From contig OX638323.1 of NCBI GenBank assembly GCA_951812715.1, forward strand, positions 1,964,577 through 2,028,576: DNA of 64,000 bases, given 5' to 3'. How positions within the stretch are numbered: the first letter of the stretch is position 1; every line of letters begins with the position of its first letter. Positions 48,001 to 53,496 of the stretch are shown one piece after another. The stretch is from an uncultured Pseudohongiella sp. GTDB taxonomy: Bacteria; Pseudomonadota; Gammaproteobacteria; Pseudomonadales; Pseudohongiellaceae. The notes beneath the pieces are model-generated. The model was not told where the DNA came from and did not search any database. It saw nothing but the letters and a program-made list of their open reading frames with translations. A program made the position numbers and the translations under genes.

Positions 48001-48125
48001 GCCGGGCTGTATGCAACTAACCATCTACGGAGAGCCTGCACCGGCCTGATCAATTATGCTGCTCTACTACAATGTCGGATAGTGATTTTCTTGCCAAAAT
48101 CCGGTCGCGCCGCTGGCATTGCCTC

Positions 48126-48366
48126 ATGAACAGCATAGACGTCGCGTTGCCCGGAACGCTCAAGAACTTTGTTGACGATCAAGTTTCCGCGCAAGGCTAA
48201 GGTGCTTCGAGCGAATACGTTTGCGAGTTGATCCGCAAGGAGCAGGATCGCCAGCGATTGCGCGCCCCCGTCCTCGAAGGGGCGGCTTCACCGCGGGAAA
48301 ACAGTTGCGGACGCGGAGTACTTTGACCAGCTTCGCGGTTGGGTTCTCGAGTCAGGGCGGACGTGA
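48126..48366 (+). pseudogene. Decayed ParD-type antitoxin
   Basis: It starts MNSIDVALPGTLKNFVDDQ, a ribbon-helix-helix ParD opening, then hits an in-frame TAA at 48198-48200 after SAQG. The same frame continues GASSEYVCELIRKEQDRQRL, clearly ParD. The family-like C-terminus AEYFDQLRGWVLESGRT is in another frame and ends at 48364-48366. So there is one nonsense change and at least one frameshift. Its final TGA overlaps the GTG of the toxin remnant (GTGA), the canonical operon overlap. Confidence 0.85.
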
Positions 48367-48731
48367 TTGCAAAGCCCTTGAGCTTGCGCCGACTGGCGCG
48401 ACAGGACATCGACGAAGCGATCGAATTCTATCTTGCCGAAGCTGGCGTTACGGTGGCGATCCAGTTATTCGATTCCCTGAAATCATTCCTGGTTCGCGTC
48501 CAAAATTAACCGGCATCCGGTTCGACCCGCTACGCGCACGAGTTGGACGTTCCCGGTCTGCGCACCCTGGCAGTTGGCAAGTTTCCCCAACTTGTTTTCT
48601 ACGTCGAGAAAGACGATGAGATCGATATCTGGCGCGCGCTTCACGGCGCCAGGGATATCCCGGCCTGGTTAATCGAGCTGGAGAACTGGAAGGGGTTGTT
48701 TCCACGACTGATTGTCCTATGGGTGTCCTGA
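48363..48731 (+). pseudogene. Decayed ParE-type toxin
   Basis: From GTG at 48363 it reads VIAKPLSLRRLARQDIDEAI, a RelE/ParE-superfamily opening. After LKSFLVRVQN there is an in-frame TAA at 48507-48509. The same frame resumes as PASGSTRYAHELDVPGLRTL and then FPQLVFYVEKDDEIDIWRAL with ALHGARDIPAWL, the characteristic ParE C-terminal half. The residues just before the stop do not look like the family, so a small deletion or double frameshift is likely there. Non-functional as read. Confidence 0.82.
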
Positions 48732-48984
48732 TTGCATATTTGGTGCACGTTTTCAAATCAAACACCAAATCTAATTACTGGCTACTCGATGAACTGGCTT
48801 GGTATGCCGGCAATTGTCATTTTTTAATACTTTGAATGTATATACGGTCATTGTTAGAATTAGCAATCAGTTGTACTTTCTGACTTGGCTTAAGTTACGC
48901 TGCAACCTTAAAGGGTTACGATTATAAATTTGACCATTAGTTTGACTAACCTATAAGAAAGATACAGCTGGAATCAAGCATTCT
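48732..48984. other. AT-rich spacer at island edge
   Basis: The base composition drops sharply here compared with the core genes on either side. No gene, terminator or clear repeat is seen. It probably carries the promoter of the following AT-rich gene. Confidence 0.5.
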
Positions 48985-49467
48985 ATGAATTATGATCTTC
49001 TGATTATATTCGCCCTTGTTGCTAGTTTTTCCGTGATAACAGCGATAGCAACACGTGCAATAAGGCGAAAATTTGGGTACAAAAAATATTTGATATTTTT
49101 TGGACAGTTACTCCTATTATTACCTTGGCTTAGTCACTACAATTATTTTCTGAGGATGGCAAATTCAAACGAATTTTCCTGGCAGGTTTTCTTGGTCCCT
49201 TTTGCCATATTGATGCTAGTTATTTTGATAGTGCAGATAGATTCTATGATATTAAGAGCTGCTAATTTTCTAGTCCCTAGTTTGGCATACATGGCAACAT
49301 ATTATTATGTAATGCCAACAGTATATGCAGCAACACAAAACTATGTTTTCGATAATATCCCCACAATCTGGCTATTTTTTTGGACAATTGTGGCGACATC
49401 AATCCTGTTGGCATACGTTTTTCCGGTACAAGCTCTTAAATTGGGAAAGCACGATAGGAATAATTAG
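48985..49467 (+). CDS. AT-rich orphan membrane protein
   Basis: A 160-residue protein I do not recognise. Four hydrophobic segments: residues about 4-25, 35-52, 65-85 and 125-147 (LLIIFALVASFSVITAIAT; YLIFFGQLLLLLPWL; VFLVPFAILMLVILIVQI; IWLFFWTIVATSILLAYVF), with basic loops (RAIRRKFGYKK). There is no signal-peptidase site or catalytic motif. Codon use is far more AT-rich than the neighbours, so it is likely acquired. It lies beside a bacteriocin-like locus and could be an immunity protein, but only location suggests this. Confidence 0.6.
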   Translation: MNYDLLIIFALVASFSVITAIATRAIRRKFGYKKYLIFFGQLLLLLPWLSHYNYFLRMANSNEFSWQVFLVPFAILMLVILIVQIDSMILRAANFLVPSLAYMATYYYVMPTVYAATQNYVFDNIPTIWLFFWTIVATSILLAYVFPVQALKLGKHDRNN

Positions 49468-49689
49468 TTCCTGTCCGAAAATTCCCCTTTCCATTGGTGG
49501 AATTGCTCCGGCAAGGTGCGGGAACTTTCCGCTCAAGCCCTGTCGATGCCGTTTTCTCTTGATATTATTTGATGTCGAGTGGATTTTGCCGTGCGGGGGC
49601 CGCGAATCCGGGATTTTCAGAATTGCGGGCAATGTCGAATCTCTGGCGCCGAGGGCCGGCCCGGTTTTATCGCATACGCACATGCTGGG
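49468..49689. other. Spacer without recognised features
   Basis: Between the orphan membrane gene and the transposase debris. Part of it may be the outer end of the decayed insertion sequence, but I could not find terminal inverted repeats. Confidence 0.4.
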
Positions 49690-50570
49690 ACCGATCTGGT
49701 GAGATGCAATCGCGCCAATATTACCAGGTTGTGGGTGAAGGCCGCGGATTGTACTCAAGCCTTGAAGCGCGCCAAGCTCCGCCAGTGGCAGCGCGCCAGT
49801 CCGAAGCGACGCTTGGGGTAGGAGATGCCGGCTTCCACCACCACATAGAGCACCAGGTCGCTGTGGCCCGTGGCCAGATTGATCTTGTGACCGTATGCGG
49901 CTCGAACAGGCTGACGATCTTTTCCATGGCTGGCGTGTTCTCTTCCAGCAGCACGCGTCGCGCCGCCTGCCTTTGCCAGCGCGCGGACCACGCATTCCGC
50001 AGCGCCGCCACCTGCATGCAGCCGGGCGGCATCGGCATGATCCAGCGCGGAGCGCGAGCCGGAACAGCTTGCGATACGTGCGTTTTCGCCGCGCCGCGCC
50101 GCGCCGCGCTCCGTTGCGTGCGCGCCTTCAGTTCGCGTCGCTTCGCGGCCCGAAAATGATCCTGGTATACGATCACATCCCCCTAGGTATTGGCGGGTGG
50201 GCGCCAGCAAGCGCGTCAGCACACGTGCGCCGTACAAGAATCAGACGGTTGTCCGTCGGCGCCTATATATGGGTCTCGGTGACGGTGCTATCGGCGCGCA
50301 CCGCTCCTACACTCGCCTGCAAGGCGAATTACCCCGGCGGCCGCAACCGGCCTAGACGCACGAACCGGCTCATCGATTGCGAGTCCCGCAGGAAAAACTC
50401 CAGACCGCGACAGCTCAATTGATGCTAATGCCCGATTACGGCGCAGCGCAGTACGGTCGCGCAACTCAACCCAAACGGCCGCGGGTCTGGCTGTGCACGG
50501 CGCCGAGATCGGCAGCCACGGCATCAAGCAGCTCGGGGTGACTGTCCAGCCAAGTGCTGGTATCGGGTCA
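49690..50570 (-). pseudogene. Decayed insertion-sequence transposase (ISNCY-like)
   Basis: Read leftward across frames, recognisable transposase pieces occur in order: LDSHPELLDAVAADLGAVHS, SCRGLEFFLRDSQSMSRFVR, VRVLTRLLAPTRQYLG-like and VIVYQDHFRAAKRRELKART, then AMEKIVSLFEPHT, YGHKINLATGHSDLVLYVVV, EAGISYPKRRFGLARCHW, and FKA-stop-VQSAAFTHNLVILARL. There are several frameshifts and stops. From memory of the family, the segment between FEPHT and YGHKI is shortened, and most of the catalytic core is missing where two EAG motifs would be joined. Family name from memory, tentative. Confidence 0.75.
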
Positions 50571-51349
50571 ATTGAATCCATGCGGGAAATGATGTCTCCC
50601 GCATGGCGCTTTTCGAAATAGGCCGCGGGTAGACGAATCAGGTGCCGCAGCACATTGCCTGCCATTTGAAAGGTCATTGACTGGCCTAGCAACAAAATTA
50701 CCCAGGATCGCAGCGCGACGGTCACGGCACGAATCAGATAGAGGCAACCGAAACCAATTCCTAGCAGAAACAGAAAATCCGTATCGAACCGAGTCACCGC
50801 CTCGTCGATGACAAGTTGCAGATAGAAGGGCGAAGCCAAGCCAAATAGTTGAATTACGACGGACAGGATAAGAATCTGTATCAAGGATCGCTTTAGGCCG
50901 GACAGGCGGGACCACAAGCTGGTCAATCGCGTTCTGGTTCGGGCCACGATTGGCTGAAAGTCAGTGGCGGGAGTCACCTCCAGCGCAACGCCGGTGAAGT
51001 GTTTCGATATTTCATCGAGAGAATAGGTTACTCGGCCGTGGGCTGGATCGAACACGACGAATCGGTTTCGCCGAATTTCCTTCAACACCACGAAATGATC
51101 CATATCCCAGTGCAGAATCACGGGAAGCGAAATATCCTTCAATCGTTGGGGTTCGAGTCGCAGAGCGCGCGAGCCAAGCATAAGCTGCTCGGCGATCTTC
51201 ATCAGATCGCGTAACCGCGACCCCTTAAGCGATGAACCGAAACGCTGGCGCATGGCGTTCAGATCGATTTTGTGACCGTGGTGTTGGGCCACCATCGCCA
51301 AAGACGCAAGGCCGCACTCGGCGGCCTCACTTTGCAGAAAAATCTTCAA
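50571..51349 (-). pseudogene. Truncated C39-peptidase ABC exporter (bacteriocin type)
   Basis: The first 260 residues of a peptidase-containing ABC transporter that cleaves double-glycine leaders and exports the peptide. The N-terminal C39 peptidase has catalytic Cys12 in SEAAECGLASLAMV, His85 in HWDMDHFVVL and Asp101 in VFDPAHG. Two membrane helices follow (about 155-184 and 192-222), then AAYFEKRHAGDIISRMDSI. After this the frame enters transposase debris and stays open to 50288 as an unrelated tail. The remaining helices and the ATPase domain are absent from the window, so export by this protein alone is not expected. The peptidase domain looks intact. Confidence 0.85.
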
Positions 51350-51425
51350 TGTTGCACAGCCAAGAAATTAATTGCTGGGAGAAGATAGAAAAATAGGGAA
51401 AAGCGAGAAATTTAAATAATCCTTT

Positions 51426-52001
51426 TTAAGGAATAGCAGGTAATAATATCGCGATAAGGTTGCACAAGCCATGCAAGATGCTCACGGAGAGAATTGGATG
51501 TCCATTTTTTCGTTCGATCTCTGTTATGGACAAAATGGTGAATAAGAAAGCAGACAAAATTACTGCTAATGCGTACAATAAACCGAAGTAATTGAGGCCA
51601 AAATTTACCGCATGAGAGGAAGAAAATAGCAAGCTTGTGATCAGAAAAGAATAAATCCAGCTATTTGATTTGGTAATCCAATCAGTGATTTTTTTTACTG
51701 TTAGTAAAATGATGAACTGAAAAATCAAAGTCTCCAAGAATGGAGCGACTATTGCAGCAATAGTAATCACCCAAATCAAAGGTAAAGAGGAAAAAATTTC
51801 TGCATCAGCGGAATCCACTGCTATCAAAAATTCTGGTTCGATAAGATACAACAATTCCAATGTGATCAAATCTGTAATTAAGATAACTGCCCAAAATGTA
51901 AGAATCAATTTTAATCTATTGATCTGAGCTAGGTAAGCAATAACTTTTTTCATTAGTGGGATATCTTTTAACTGGTGGAGTTCTATAGAATTAGGAAGCA
52001 T
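51426..52001 (-). CDS. CPBP-like intramembrane protein
   Basis: A 191-residue AT-rich membrane protein with about six hydrophobic segments, resembling CAAX protease/bacteriocin-processing (CPBP/Abi) proteins. The motif regions are present but altered: APFLETLIFQFII in place of EExxxR, then FSSSHAVNFG, and HGLCNLIAILL. The second Glu and the Arg of motif 1 are replaced. Such proteins often serve in bacteriocin immunity or maturation. An internal ATG at 51951-51953 (MKKVIAYLAQINRL) is an alternative start. It lies between the exporter and the leader-peptide gene on the same strand. Confidence 0.7.
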   Translation of the reverse strand: MLPNSIELHQLKDIPLMKKVIAYLAQINRLKLILTFWAVILITDLITLELLYLIEPEFLIAVDSADAEIFSSLPLIWVITIAAIVAPFLETLIFQFIILLTVKKITDWITKSNSWIYSFLITSLLFSSSHAVNFGLNYFGLLYALAVILSAFLFTILSITEIERKNGHPILSVSILHGLCNLIAILLPAIP

Positions 52002-52095
52002 ATCAAAGAGTTGAAATTTGGGAAATGGTAACTGATTATGATGATCTGAGCAACACTTAGTGATTTTCTATTAATATCGCAATATAATCCTCAAT

Positions 52096-52128
52096 AAAAA
52101 CGAGGGAAGGCAAAGCCTTCCCTCGTTT
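52096..52128. terminator. Terminator after the peptide gene
   Basis: An 11-base perfect stem, CGAGGGAAGGC / GCCTTCCCTCG, with an AAA loop. On the minus strand it is followed by TTTTTATT, so it terminates the leftward peptide transcript. It would also restrict read-through into the CPBP-like gene, so the peptide is probably its own transcript. Confidence 0.9.
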
Positions 52129-52162
52129 CGAACTGAAAACTCAATAGTGTTTTCTCAATAAC

Positions 52163-52435
52163 TCAATAATACGGTGGCCTAGGTAAGGGATTTTCTTGGA
52201 GATAATCTCCCAACTCTCGAGCTTGTTCCTTAATCTTTTGTCGATTTTTCCAAGCTTCTGCTGCTACTTCAATAGCAGATATTATTCTCCCGACTGGTCC
52301 CAAGATTTTTTTTATCAATTTCTTTATCCCGCTTGGCTCTTTTTTTTCCCCTCCGCTAACCAAGTCGATCTCTTTACTTGACAGTTCCAGGATTCCGTAA
52401 TCCATATCTGAGCCGCCGATTGAAAAATCTTTCAT
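52163..52435 (-). CDS. Double-glycine leader peptide, putative class II bacteriocin precursor
   Basis: A 90-residue precursor. The leader ends LSSKEIDLVSGG at residues 18-29, matching the double-glycine leader pattern (LSxxEIxxVSGG) of lactobin A/cerein 7B-type bacteriocins and the substrate of C39 peptidases. The predicted 61-residue product is cysteine-free, with net charge about +5. Its first half is cationic and probably amphipathic (SGIKKLIKKILGPVGRI, then ISAIEVAAEAW) and it ends PLPRPPYY. A strong ribosome-binding site AGGAG stands 7 bases before the ATG. Its own terminator follows. I recognise no named bacteriocin; antibacterial function is inferred. Confidence 0.78.
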   Translation of the reverse strand: MKDFSIGGSDMDYGILELSSKEIDLVSGGEKKEPSGIKKLIKKILGPVGRIISAIEVAAEAWKNRQKIKEQARELGDYLQENPLPRPPYY

Positions 52436-52620
52436 GTTCCTTCTCCTGCTTAGATTCTAGTGATTGGCTATAGCCATTATTTATCTTGACTCATTCCGGA
52501 CAGCATCTATTTCAAATTCAACTCGATTTAAATTTTCATGTCATCACAAGAAATCGTCAAGATATTAAAACTCTACCCCCAACCCGGCGGCGACGGTTCG
52601 AAGCCACATTCAGTAAACCT
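52436..52620. promoter_or_regulatory. Leader region of the peptide gene
   Basis: An AT-rich 185-base region upstream of the peptide gene (leftward). It contains the ribosome-binding site at 52443-52447 and a perfect 12-base palindrome TGGCTATAGCCA at 52465-52476, just upstream, which could be an operator. A TTGACG on the minus strand lies further upstream, but no convincing -10 box at 17 bases was found. Confidence 0.45.
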
Positions 52621-53256
52621 TTATAGGTCTTCCGCCGGTGATTGACCGTAGGTCGGTGCGTCGCCGGCCAGGTAAGCTAGCTCTTCTTCGGTGGACTCTC
52701 TTCCCAATGTCTTGTTGCGGTGCGGGAAGCGGCCGAAGCGGGCGATTACGTCCCGGTGATCGCGGGCGTAGGGGGCCTGTTCCCCGGAAAAATTCTCGAA
52801 AGCCGCCAGGCATTCCGCGTCCATTTCCTTCGTCACCCGCACCGACAACTCCTGCGCCGCCAGATCTTCCGCATGTTGCAGCGGCATGTAGTAGAACGCC
52901 CGCTCCAGCAACCCGACTTCCCGATCCATGCCCTGGTCGATAGCGTTTAGCGCCAGGGCAAGCGCCCGCTCGTCGCCGGCAAATGCGCCGGCGCGCCCCC
53001 GGCAGATGTTGCGGGTGAACTGGTCGAGCACGATGATCAGCGCGAGGCGCGGCAGTGCTTCCGCCTCCCAACCCTGGCAAGACCCGGCAAGCACCGCCTT
53101 GACCAGAGTCCCGAATCGCTCCTGGATCAACGCATCGGTAGCGGAATCGAAGCCATACCAGAGCTTGAGCCGTTCGCCCAGGTCGTCCGGCCGCAACGGC
53201 AGGCGCCCGAACCAGAACGCAATCACTTCCTGGTAGGTCATTTCCGAATGATTCAT
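52621..53256 (-). CDS. DUF924 family protein
   Basis: A 211-residue cytoplasmic protein of the DUF924 family, helical and TPR-like, of unknown function. It starts MNHSEMTYQEVIAFWFGRL; an ATG five codons later is also possible. The family pattern includes the initial IxFWF, GWEAEALPRLALIIVLDQFT and RNICRGRAGAFAGDERAL, then FYYMPLQHAEDLAAQE, FGRFPHRNKTLGRESTEEE and YLA near the end. Normal GC content, so it belongs to the core side of the island border. The reading frame is open further upstream to 53700, but that part is intergenic. Confidence 0.85.
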   Translation of the reverse strand: MNHSEMTYQEVIAFWFGRLPLRPDDLGERLKLWYGFDSATDALIQERFGTLVKAVLAGSCQGWEAEALPRLALIIVLDQFTRNICRGRAGAFAGDERALALALNAIDQGMDREVGLLERAFYYMPLQHAEDLAAQELSVRVTKEMDAECLAAFENFSGEQAPYARDHRDVIARFGRFPHRNKTLGRESTEEELAYLAGDAPTYGQSPAEDL

Positions 53257-53496
53257 TCCAATTGCCCCGGCCGCCGCGGTAACGGAACACCTGGCTATAC
53301 TACAGGCGATGACCGGAGTTCGCATCGTGGCGCTGCGTGCGCGCGCGCTCGCGCCGTCGGCATTGTGAGCGTTGATCGTTCTATACTGGTGCGCGGAAGC
53401 CCGGCTTGAGATTCGGGCCGAAAAATGCTTGAATGCGCGCGCATTCGGCGCCGCATGATTCCGGCCGGCGCCGCCCCACGACTGGCTCATTTGTCC

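Follow-up and report, generated by a model that had tools for sequence, protein, structure and literature searches.

PCATs cleave their substrates after a double-glycine (GG) motif and export the products through an ABC-HlyD-TolC route. In Aliivibrio wodanis, a locus of pAWOD920 (AWOD_p920_61-66) encodes a GG peptide, a C39-type transport peptidase, HlyD and a PF02517 (Abi/CAAX) protein; the PF02517 protein was proposed to provide self-immunity, and isolates carrying the locus inhibit others (PMC4462113). McbABCI of Moraxella catarrhalis is a proven bacteriocin system with a separate immunity gene, and its leader motif covers residues 25-39 of 101 (PMC2761928). In lactic acid bacteria, SkkI, PlnI and PlnL are Abi/CPBP (PF02517-type) membrane proteins that are encoded with bacteriocins and protect the producer (reviewed in PMC8538875). 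The locus described here belongs to a general kind known from other Gram-negative bacteria, and its sequence family is new. A sequence-only reading had called it undescribed, which holds for the sequence family and not for the architecture, as the latter was reported in A. wodanis (PMC4462113).

The window, i.e., the whole stretch of 64,000 nt that was analysed, covers positions 1,964,577-2,028,576 of a 3.54 Mb single-contig genome (G000). We consider that the locus is probably what remains of a class II microcin-like bacteriocin operon, the original plan of which is seen in intact relatives. Judged by its gene content, the window copy is broken and would no longer be able to secrete its own product by itself. 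The relatives were G057 (an uncultured Pseudohongiella MAG, OX638341.1), with the loci G057a (L043) and G057b (L044), and G021 (a Pseudomonadales MAG, JANQSV01), with the locus L042. The features of the window locus were as follows:

48084..48732, no strand assigned: right flank, where synteny with G057 restarts (blastn, 85% identity to L043 15550-16198)
48733..50554, no strand assigned: foreign DNA in place of the missing exporter sequence and the HlyD gene (nothing matching in the syntenic G057 locus)
50288..50557, minus strand: foreign sequence through which the truncated exporter ORF runs on to its stop, about 90 codons (alignment, blastn)
50558..51349, minus strand: 5' part of the C39-peptidase ABC exporter gene (PF03412, E 1.6e-36; PF00664, partial; alignment to 690-aa intact exporters)
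51426..52001, minus strand: CPBP/Rce1-like membrane protein, 191 aa (PF02517 and alignment of eight operon-encoded homologues)
52097..52128, minus strand: Rho-independent terminator directly after the peptide gene (RNA fold)
52163..52435, minus strand: precursor peptide, 90 aa (ORF and homologues in G021, in G057 (two) and at a second locus of this genome)
52443..52447, minus strand: AGGAG ribosome-binding site (sequence and alignment, kept in 5/5 upstream regions compared)
52576..52585, minus strand: decayed promoter G tract GGGTTGGGGG (comparison with L042, L043 and L044)
52621..53290, minus strand: DUF924 gene, left flank, start approximate (PF06041, E 8.1e-57)

The precursor gene, the CPBP gene and the 5' part of the C39 exporter gene all lie on the minus strand, and the local GC content was 41-48% versus approximately 60% in the surrounding region, in agreement with the earlier description of three genes on one strand in AT-rich DNA. 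The DUF924 gene is on the same strand as the peptide gene and directly upstream of it. The 90-aa ORF with a double-glycine leader ending in LELSSKEIDLVSGG was present as described, and the precursor consists of a 29-residue leader (MKDFSIGGSDMDYGILELSSKEIDLVSGG) and a 61-residue cationic core. The C39-type leader positions L-12, E-8, I-7, V-4, G-2 and G-1 were all present, and the leader was conserved in five precursors. The leader profile matched the other four precursors with E values of 1e-17 to 1e-18; because the same sequences built the profile, independent support comes from position, as three of the four head the same operon in relatives. The AGGAG ribosome-binding site lies 7 nt upstream of the ATG, and the peptide stop is followed by a strong hairpin and a T-run, both as originally noted. 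The segment 52080-52145 folds at -34 kcal/mol (z -8.3), none of 200 shuffles folded as well, and comparable hairpins follow the peptide genes in L042, L043 and L044.

The window core contains no Cys and has a net charge of +5 and a pI of 9.7; its N-terminal stretch was amphipathic (shuffle p 0.006). The absence of cysteine, which had been pointed out from the sequence, is a property of the window copy but not a family trait: the two nearest relatives, G021 and G057a, carry a C-x6-C loop at an aligned core position, and this loop is missing from the window core. Cationic cores (pI 9.7-11) were found in the window, in G021 and in both G057 members. Two other GG peptides of this genome have acidic, unrelated cores (pI 4.1 and 4.4), which are less typical of membrane-active bacteriocins and count against the bacteriocin reading. 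The precursor matched no family in Pfam, gave only one sub-threshold match in NCBIfam (a CTB-family bacteriocin, E 0.14), had a best value of 0.07 against PDB sequences (designed proteins) and found no match among plasmids by tblastn. A low-confidence structure model of the peptide (pLDDT 58), with two helices at 36-48 and 54-81, led to no useful fold match. An NHLP/Nif11-type RiPP was rejected, as the precursor showed no nitrile hydratase or Nif11 leader match in Pfam/NCBIfam. This genome does carry a separate NHLP-type locus (L040 12754-14094 and 5335-10486; G000:C1:1818000-1837000), in which a larger protein bears a nitrile-hydratase-like leader and a cyclase-like domain, and which includes a C39 exporter of 740 aa.

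Clear members of the precursor profile occurred in 3 of the 84 genomes of the genus, namely this genome, G021 and G057. Among 391 genomes of the order, a sample that did not include G021 and G057, the peptide profile found this genome alone. The intact operons of G021, G057a and G057b share one plan: peptide, terminator, CPBP, C39 exporter and HlyD, the HlyD gene of G021 running off the end of a short contig. G057a is located at the same chromosomal place as the window locus, beside polA, ctaB and DUF924 and with the same right flank, and G057b lies elsewhere. The intact exporters are 690-699 aa long and show full-length similarity (E 1e-99) to PCAT1, a solved bacteriocin exporter. In the search for the peptide-CPBP-C39 trio in related genomes, which had been set beforehand as a refutation check, homologous leaders adjoined C39 exporters in G021 and G057; the proposal that the locus encodes, or once encoded, a secreted peptide is thus well supported. 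We infer an antibacterial action from the gene content, the cationic core and the diversification of core and CPBP.

Two further operon copies were found in this genome. The copy at 2.41 Mb has another GG peptide, CPBP, an intact exporter and an intact 414-aa HlyD. The copy at 3.1 Mb has the same leader type with a different core, three tandem CPBP genes, an intact exporter and an HlyD truncated to 237 aa. A complete PCAT was thus present in G021, in G057 and at the 2.41 and 3.1 Mb loci, HlyD was present in the G057 loci and at 2.41 Mb, and TolC-family OEP genes (PF02321, best E 4.7e-33) were found in the genome. The sequence features that define class II microcins were seen in the intact relatives; the window copy lacks two of them, a complete PCAT and an MFP, and is therefore described as a decayed, not a working, microcin locus, a state partly foreseen in the 'or once encoded' of the sequence-only reading. 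No modification enzymes were seen between the genes of the intact operons, and an ATP-grasp-like fragment was found near a decayed G057 copy. This decayed copy (L135 8282-11017) comprises CPBP, a C39 fragment, the ATP-grasp-like fragment and a 428-aa ORF, and its position corresponds to that of the 3.1 Mb locus. Additionally, the DUF924 3' end is present as direct repeats (275 bp, 96%) on either side of the intact G057a operon (L043 9048-9322 and 15232-15506), which suggests a recombining cassette inserted at this site.

GG precursors also accompany related exporters outside this group. In Alphaproteobacteria, tiny precursors with cores of 6-7 residues lie directly downstream of exporters approximately 50% identical to the window type (L075 10181-10285, L076 10203-10307, L077 10237-10383, L079 10289-10381 and L071 3160-3255). 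These cores share a pattern (VPIVIRN, TPIVIRN, GPIVIDF, NPIVIDF and GPVIDW) and look like secreted oligopeptide signals. In Undibacterium, the exporter is flanked by seven to eight GG precursors, the short cores of which (PEVDVESGGG) hardly differ (L089 4614-6226 and 10246-10425; L101 4976-6383 and 10245-10677).

The upstream regions of five precursors were compared. A palindrome (AATTTGTTRCAAWTT), followed by a TTGAC hexamer and then a G tract, was common to G021, G057a and G057b. The tracts, which sit between the TTGAC/TTGAT hexamer and the GG-precursor gene, comprise 16 G in G021 (L042 3587-3602), 11 in G057a (L043 9472-9482) and 12 in G057b (L044 9741-9752). A fourth precursor, on G021 contig 283, has the palindrome, TTGAT and an interrupted G10 (L138 around 760-810), and the 3.1 Mb copy has TTGACA without a G tract. 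In the window copy, only GGGTTGGGGG was present; the TTGAC and the palindrome of the relatives were absent at that place. Counted from overlapping matches and match counts, there were four distinct G runs of at least 11 in the 3.4 Mb of G057, two of which are these precursor tracts, and two in G021, one of which is the precursor tract. By a simple rate, the probability of two such coincidences in G057 is near 5e-8. The other inspected G runs of at least 11 in G057, G021 and G000 lay in repeats, transposase remnants and intergenic or coding sequence, and a comparable promoter was not seen among them.

Phase variation is known to arise from promoter G tracts of variable length. It is a tentative possibility, which we rate as somewhat short of probable, that a slippage-prone poly-G promoter in the intact members switches the peptide on and off stochastically and separately from CPBP and the exporter, the genes of which sit behind the precursor's terminator, and that the window copy is a locked, decayed allele. 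Length variation within one population was not seen, and homopolymers are error-prone in assemblies; therefore, phase variation is offered only as a hypothesis. If true, the promoter of a class II microcin-like bacteriocin would be subject to phase variation. A palindrome, AATTTGTTRCAAA, was considered as specific to the peptide genes and dropped: it is found genus-wide, upstream of diverse genes and in 48 of 84 genomes, and hence is not a family marker. It was far more common in the genus than its reversed control (e.g., L172, L181, L190 and L206) and is probably the operator of some regulator.

The C39 exporter of the sequence-only reading turned out to be only a fragment, with homology ending at 50555-50560, after residue 263 of about 690. 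In the stump, the C39 domain is complete, the transmembrane domain is represented by about 130 residues and the ATPase domain is absent. The C39 catalytic residues recognised earlier are in place under the PF03412 match, and Q6, C12, H85 and D101 were invariant across relatives. The best NCBIfam score of the fragment, to TIGR03796, was below the cut-off. An HlyD adaptor gene was missing from the window locus by blastn against the syntenic G057 locus. Because 48733-50554 is unmatched where G057 has the exporter remainder and a 410-aa HlyD, the window copy has lost the exporter motor and the adaptor. This block contains degenerate transposase remnants, pieces of which match a transposase-like ORF elsewhere in the genome, and the debris beside the stump remained unnamed in the Pfam search. 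The ATPase half of the exporter and the adaptor gene were evidently lost to an IS-associated replacement. The block also holds, in AT-rich DNA, an ORF for a 160-aa predicted membrane protein (48985-49467, plus strand) with no Pfam match; beside this ORF, a fragment at 48339-48509 resembles a ParE toxin.

The window copy might still function in trans, transcribed from another promoter (e.g., by read-through from DUF924) and exported by the 2.41 Mb exporter and HlyD. Its ORF, ribosome-binding site and terminator are intact, the 2.41 Mb exporter, which is accompanied by an intact HlyD, shows 88.6% identity across the 263 residues that both copies contain, and microcins sharing an export system are known (PMC9746304). 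However, the promoter -35 region, the palindrome and the G tract have been lost, and the CxxxxxxC loop of the relatives is gone from the core, so we regard function in trans as somewhat unlikely. Since the precursor and CPBP are kept intact, the window copy may be maintained as an immune non-producer, or it may make use of the 2.41 Mb exporter.

Among the operon copies, leaders were 48-72% identical and exporters 82-99% identical, whereas cores were only 13-32% identical where the pair could be usefully aligned; fewer than 10 aligned codons underlie two of the comparisons that involve the 3.1 Mb core. Between the window and G057a, the DNA identity was 91-100% in the exporter and 70-87% in CPBP, and it changed abruptly at the border between the two genes. 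When the copy at 2.41 Mb was compared with that at 3.1 Mb, the exporter was 99.3% identical (dN/dS 0.05) and CPBP 79.6% identical (dN/dS 1.09), and this contrast between exporter and CPBP was significant (Fisher p 4e-10). A constant exporter combined with a changing core and a changing CPBP is what a bacteriocin and its immunity protein would be expected to show, but relaxed constraint or recombination could also play a part in the rapid change in CPBP.

The CPBP-like membrane protein proposed from the sequence was recovered by PF02517 (E 2.5e-6, 28.1 bits versus a Pfam cut-off of 22.4). E90, H130, H177 and N181 are conserved (EtxxxQ, FxxxH and HxxxN); specifically, E90, F126xxxH130 and H177xxxN181 are invariant in the operon copies, and the motif-1 Arg position is occupied by Gln. 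This residue is R in many members of the CPBP family, so catalysis is uncertain. A CPBP model built from four sequences was of poor quality (pLDDT 68) and had no PDB match with E < 0.001, and the CPBP profile matched no PDB sequence. CPBP was present, and diversified, in every complete operon, and it is probably the immunity protein. Orphan CPBP genes of the same family occur elsewhere in the genus, with no GG peptide found nearby; thus, CPBP is not exclusively an immunity gene. Such orphans are L133 (G000:C1:2319643-2320173), L117 and L126. In G000 and G022, the orphan lies between a gpmI-like gene and a rhodanese/secB-like pair, and it is broken there in G021. The CPBP of the operons may have come from this chromosomal gene.

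CPBP proteins include genuine intramembrane proteases, and the conservation of E90, H130 and H177 in all operon copies would also suit a second protease that processes or modifies the peptide in place of an immunity protein. We consider this role unlikely: immunity accounts better for a rapid diversification that goes along with that of the cores and for the tandem triplication at 3.1 Mb, and self-protection against plantaricins and sakacin 23K has been associated with PF02517 proteins (PMC8538875).

A still less probable reading takes the peptide for a secreted pheromone-like signal or for a factor aimed at a host, with CPBP acting in its reception or maturation. C39 exporters also export signals, the alphaproteobacterial exporter relatives adjoin GG precursors with conserved, signal-like cores such as NPIVIDF and TPIVIRN, and an operator-like palindrome is conserved upstream of the peptide genes. 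However, signals are usually conserved, whereas the cores here are hypervariable and 53-61 residues long beside a conserved leader and exporter, and the intact operons showed neither a receptor kinase nor a regulator gene. Finally, a chance reading frame beside the exporter fragment, as a short ORF without a database family might suggest, is effectively ruled out by homologues that share the conserved leader and ribosome-binding site at four other loci, and the terminator at three of these.

For the class II microcin-like bacteriocin, we infer cleavage, secretion, killing and immunity as follows. An intact operon would make its double-glycine precursor from a separate, terminated transcript, and the C39 domain of the exporter would cut it after GG. 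The ABC transporter, the HlyD adaptor and a TolC-type channel would then secrete a mostly cationic core of 53-61 residues, which may act on competing, probably related, bacteria. The co-encoded CPBP would protect the producer; the likeliest way is that it binds or cuts the core within the inner membrane. Cores and CPBP diversify while the exporter stays conserved. In the window, the peptide gene has lost the -35 region of its promoter, the exporter its ATPase half and the operon its adaptor gene.

With this locus, the few Gram-negative candidates for double-glycine bacteriocins are joined by a peptide family from uncultured Pseudohongiella-like bacteria. The paralogous operons, with a changing core and CPBP and a fixed exporter, offer natural pairs for asking if CPBP by itself determines immunity in Gram-negative bacteria. 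The window copy shows one route of decay, in which the exporter and the promoter are gone and the precursor and CPBP are kept, and the relatives present a possible case of promoter phase variation in bacteriocin production.

Compared with known systems, the Pseudohongiella operon is likened by gene content to the A. wodanis pAWOD920 locus, with which it shares the gene set, both being gammaproteobacterial. The A. wodanis locus, unlike the Pseudohongiella one, has mceI/mceJ-like maturation genes and lies on a plasmid; a further difference is the broken state of the window copy. Class II microcins of Enterobacterales (microcin V, CvaABC type) have in common with this family a GG leader, a core below 10 kDa, a PCAT, a membrane fusion protein and a small membrane immunity protein, putative in this family (PMC9746304); the window locus differs in its 29-residue leader, in its PF02517 immunity candidate and in having neither ATPase nor HlyD. 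McbABCI is similar in being Gram-negative, with an extended GG leader, HlyD and a C39 ABC exporter (PMC2761928), but its immunity factor McbI is a 74-aa protein without database relatives, not a CPBP, and its gene order is different. SkkI, PlnI and PlnL differ in belonging to Gram-positive systems and in the motif-1 residue, which is Q in the window CPBP. The Neisseria nap island likewise combines a Gram-negative host, cationic GG-motif peptides and a poly-G tract suggesting phase variation (PMC11798529). The nap tract lies inside a reading frame (napR), whereas that of the Pseudohongiella relatives lies in the precursor promoter region.
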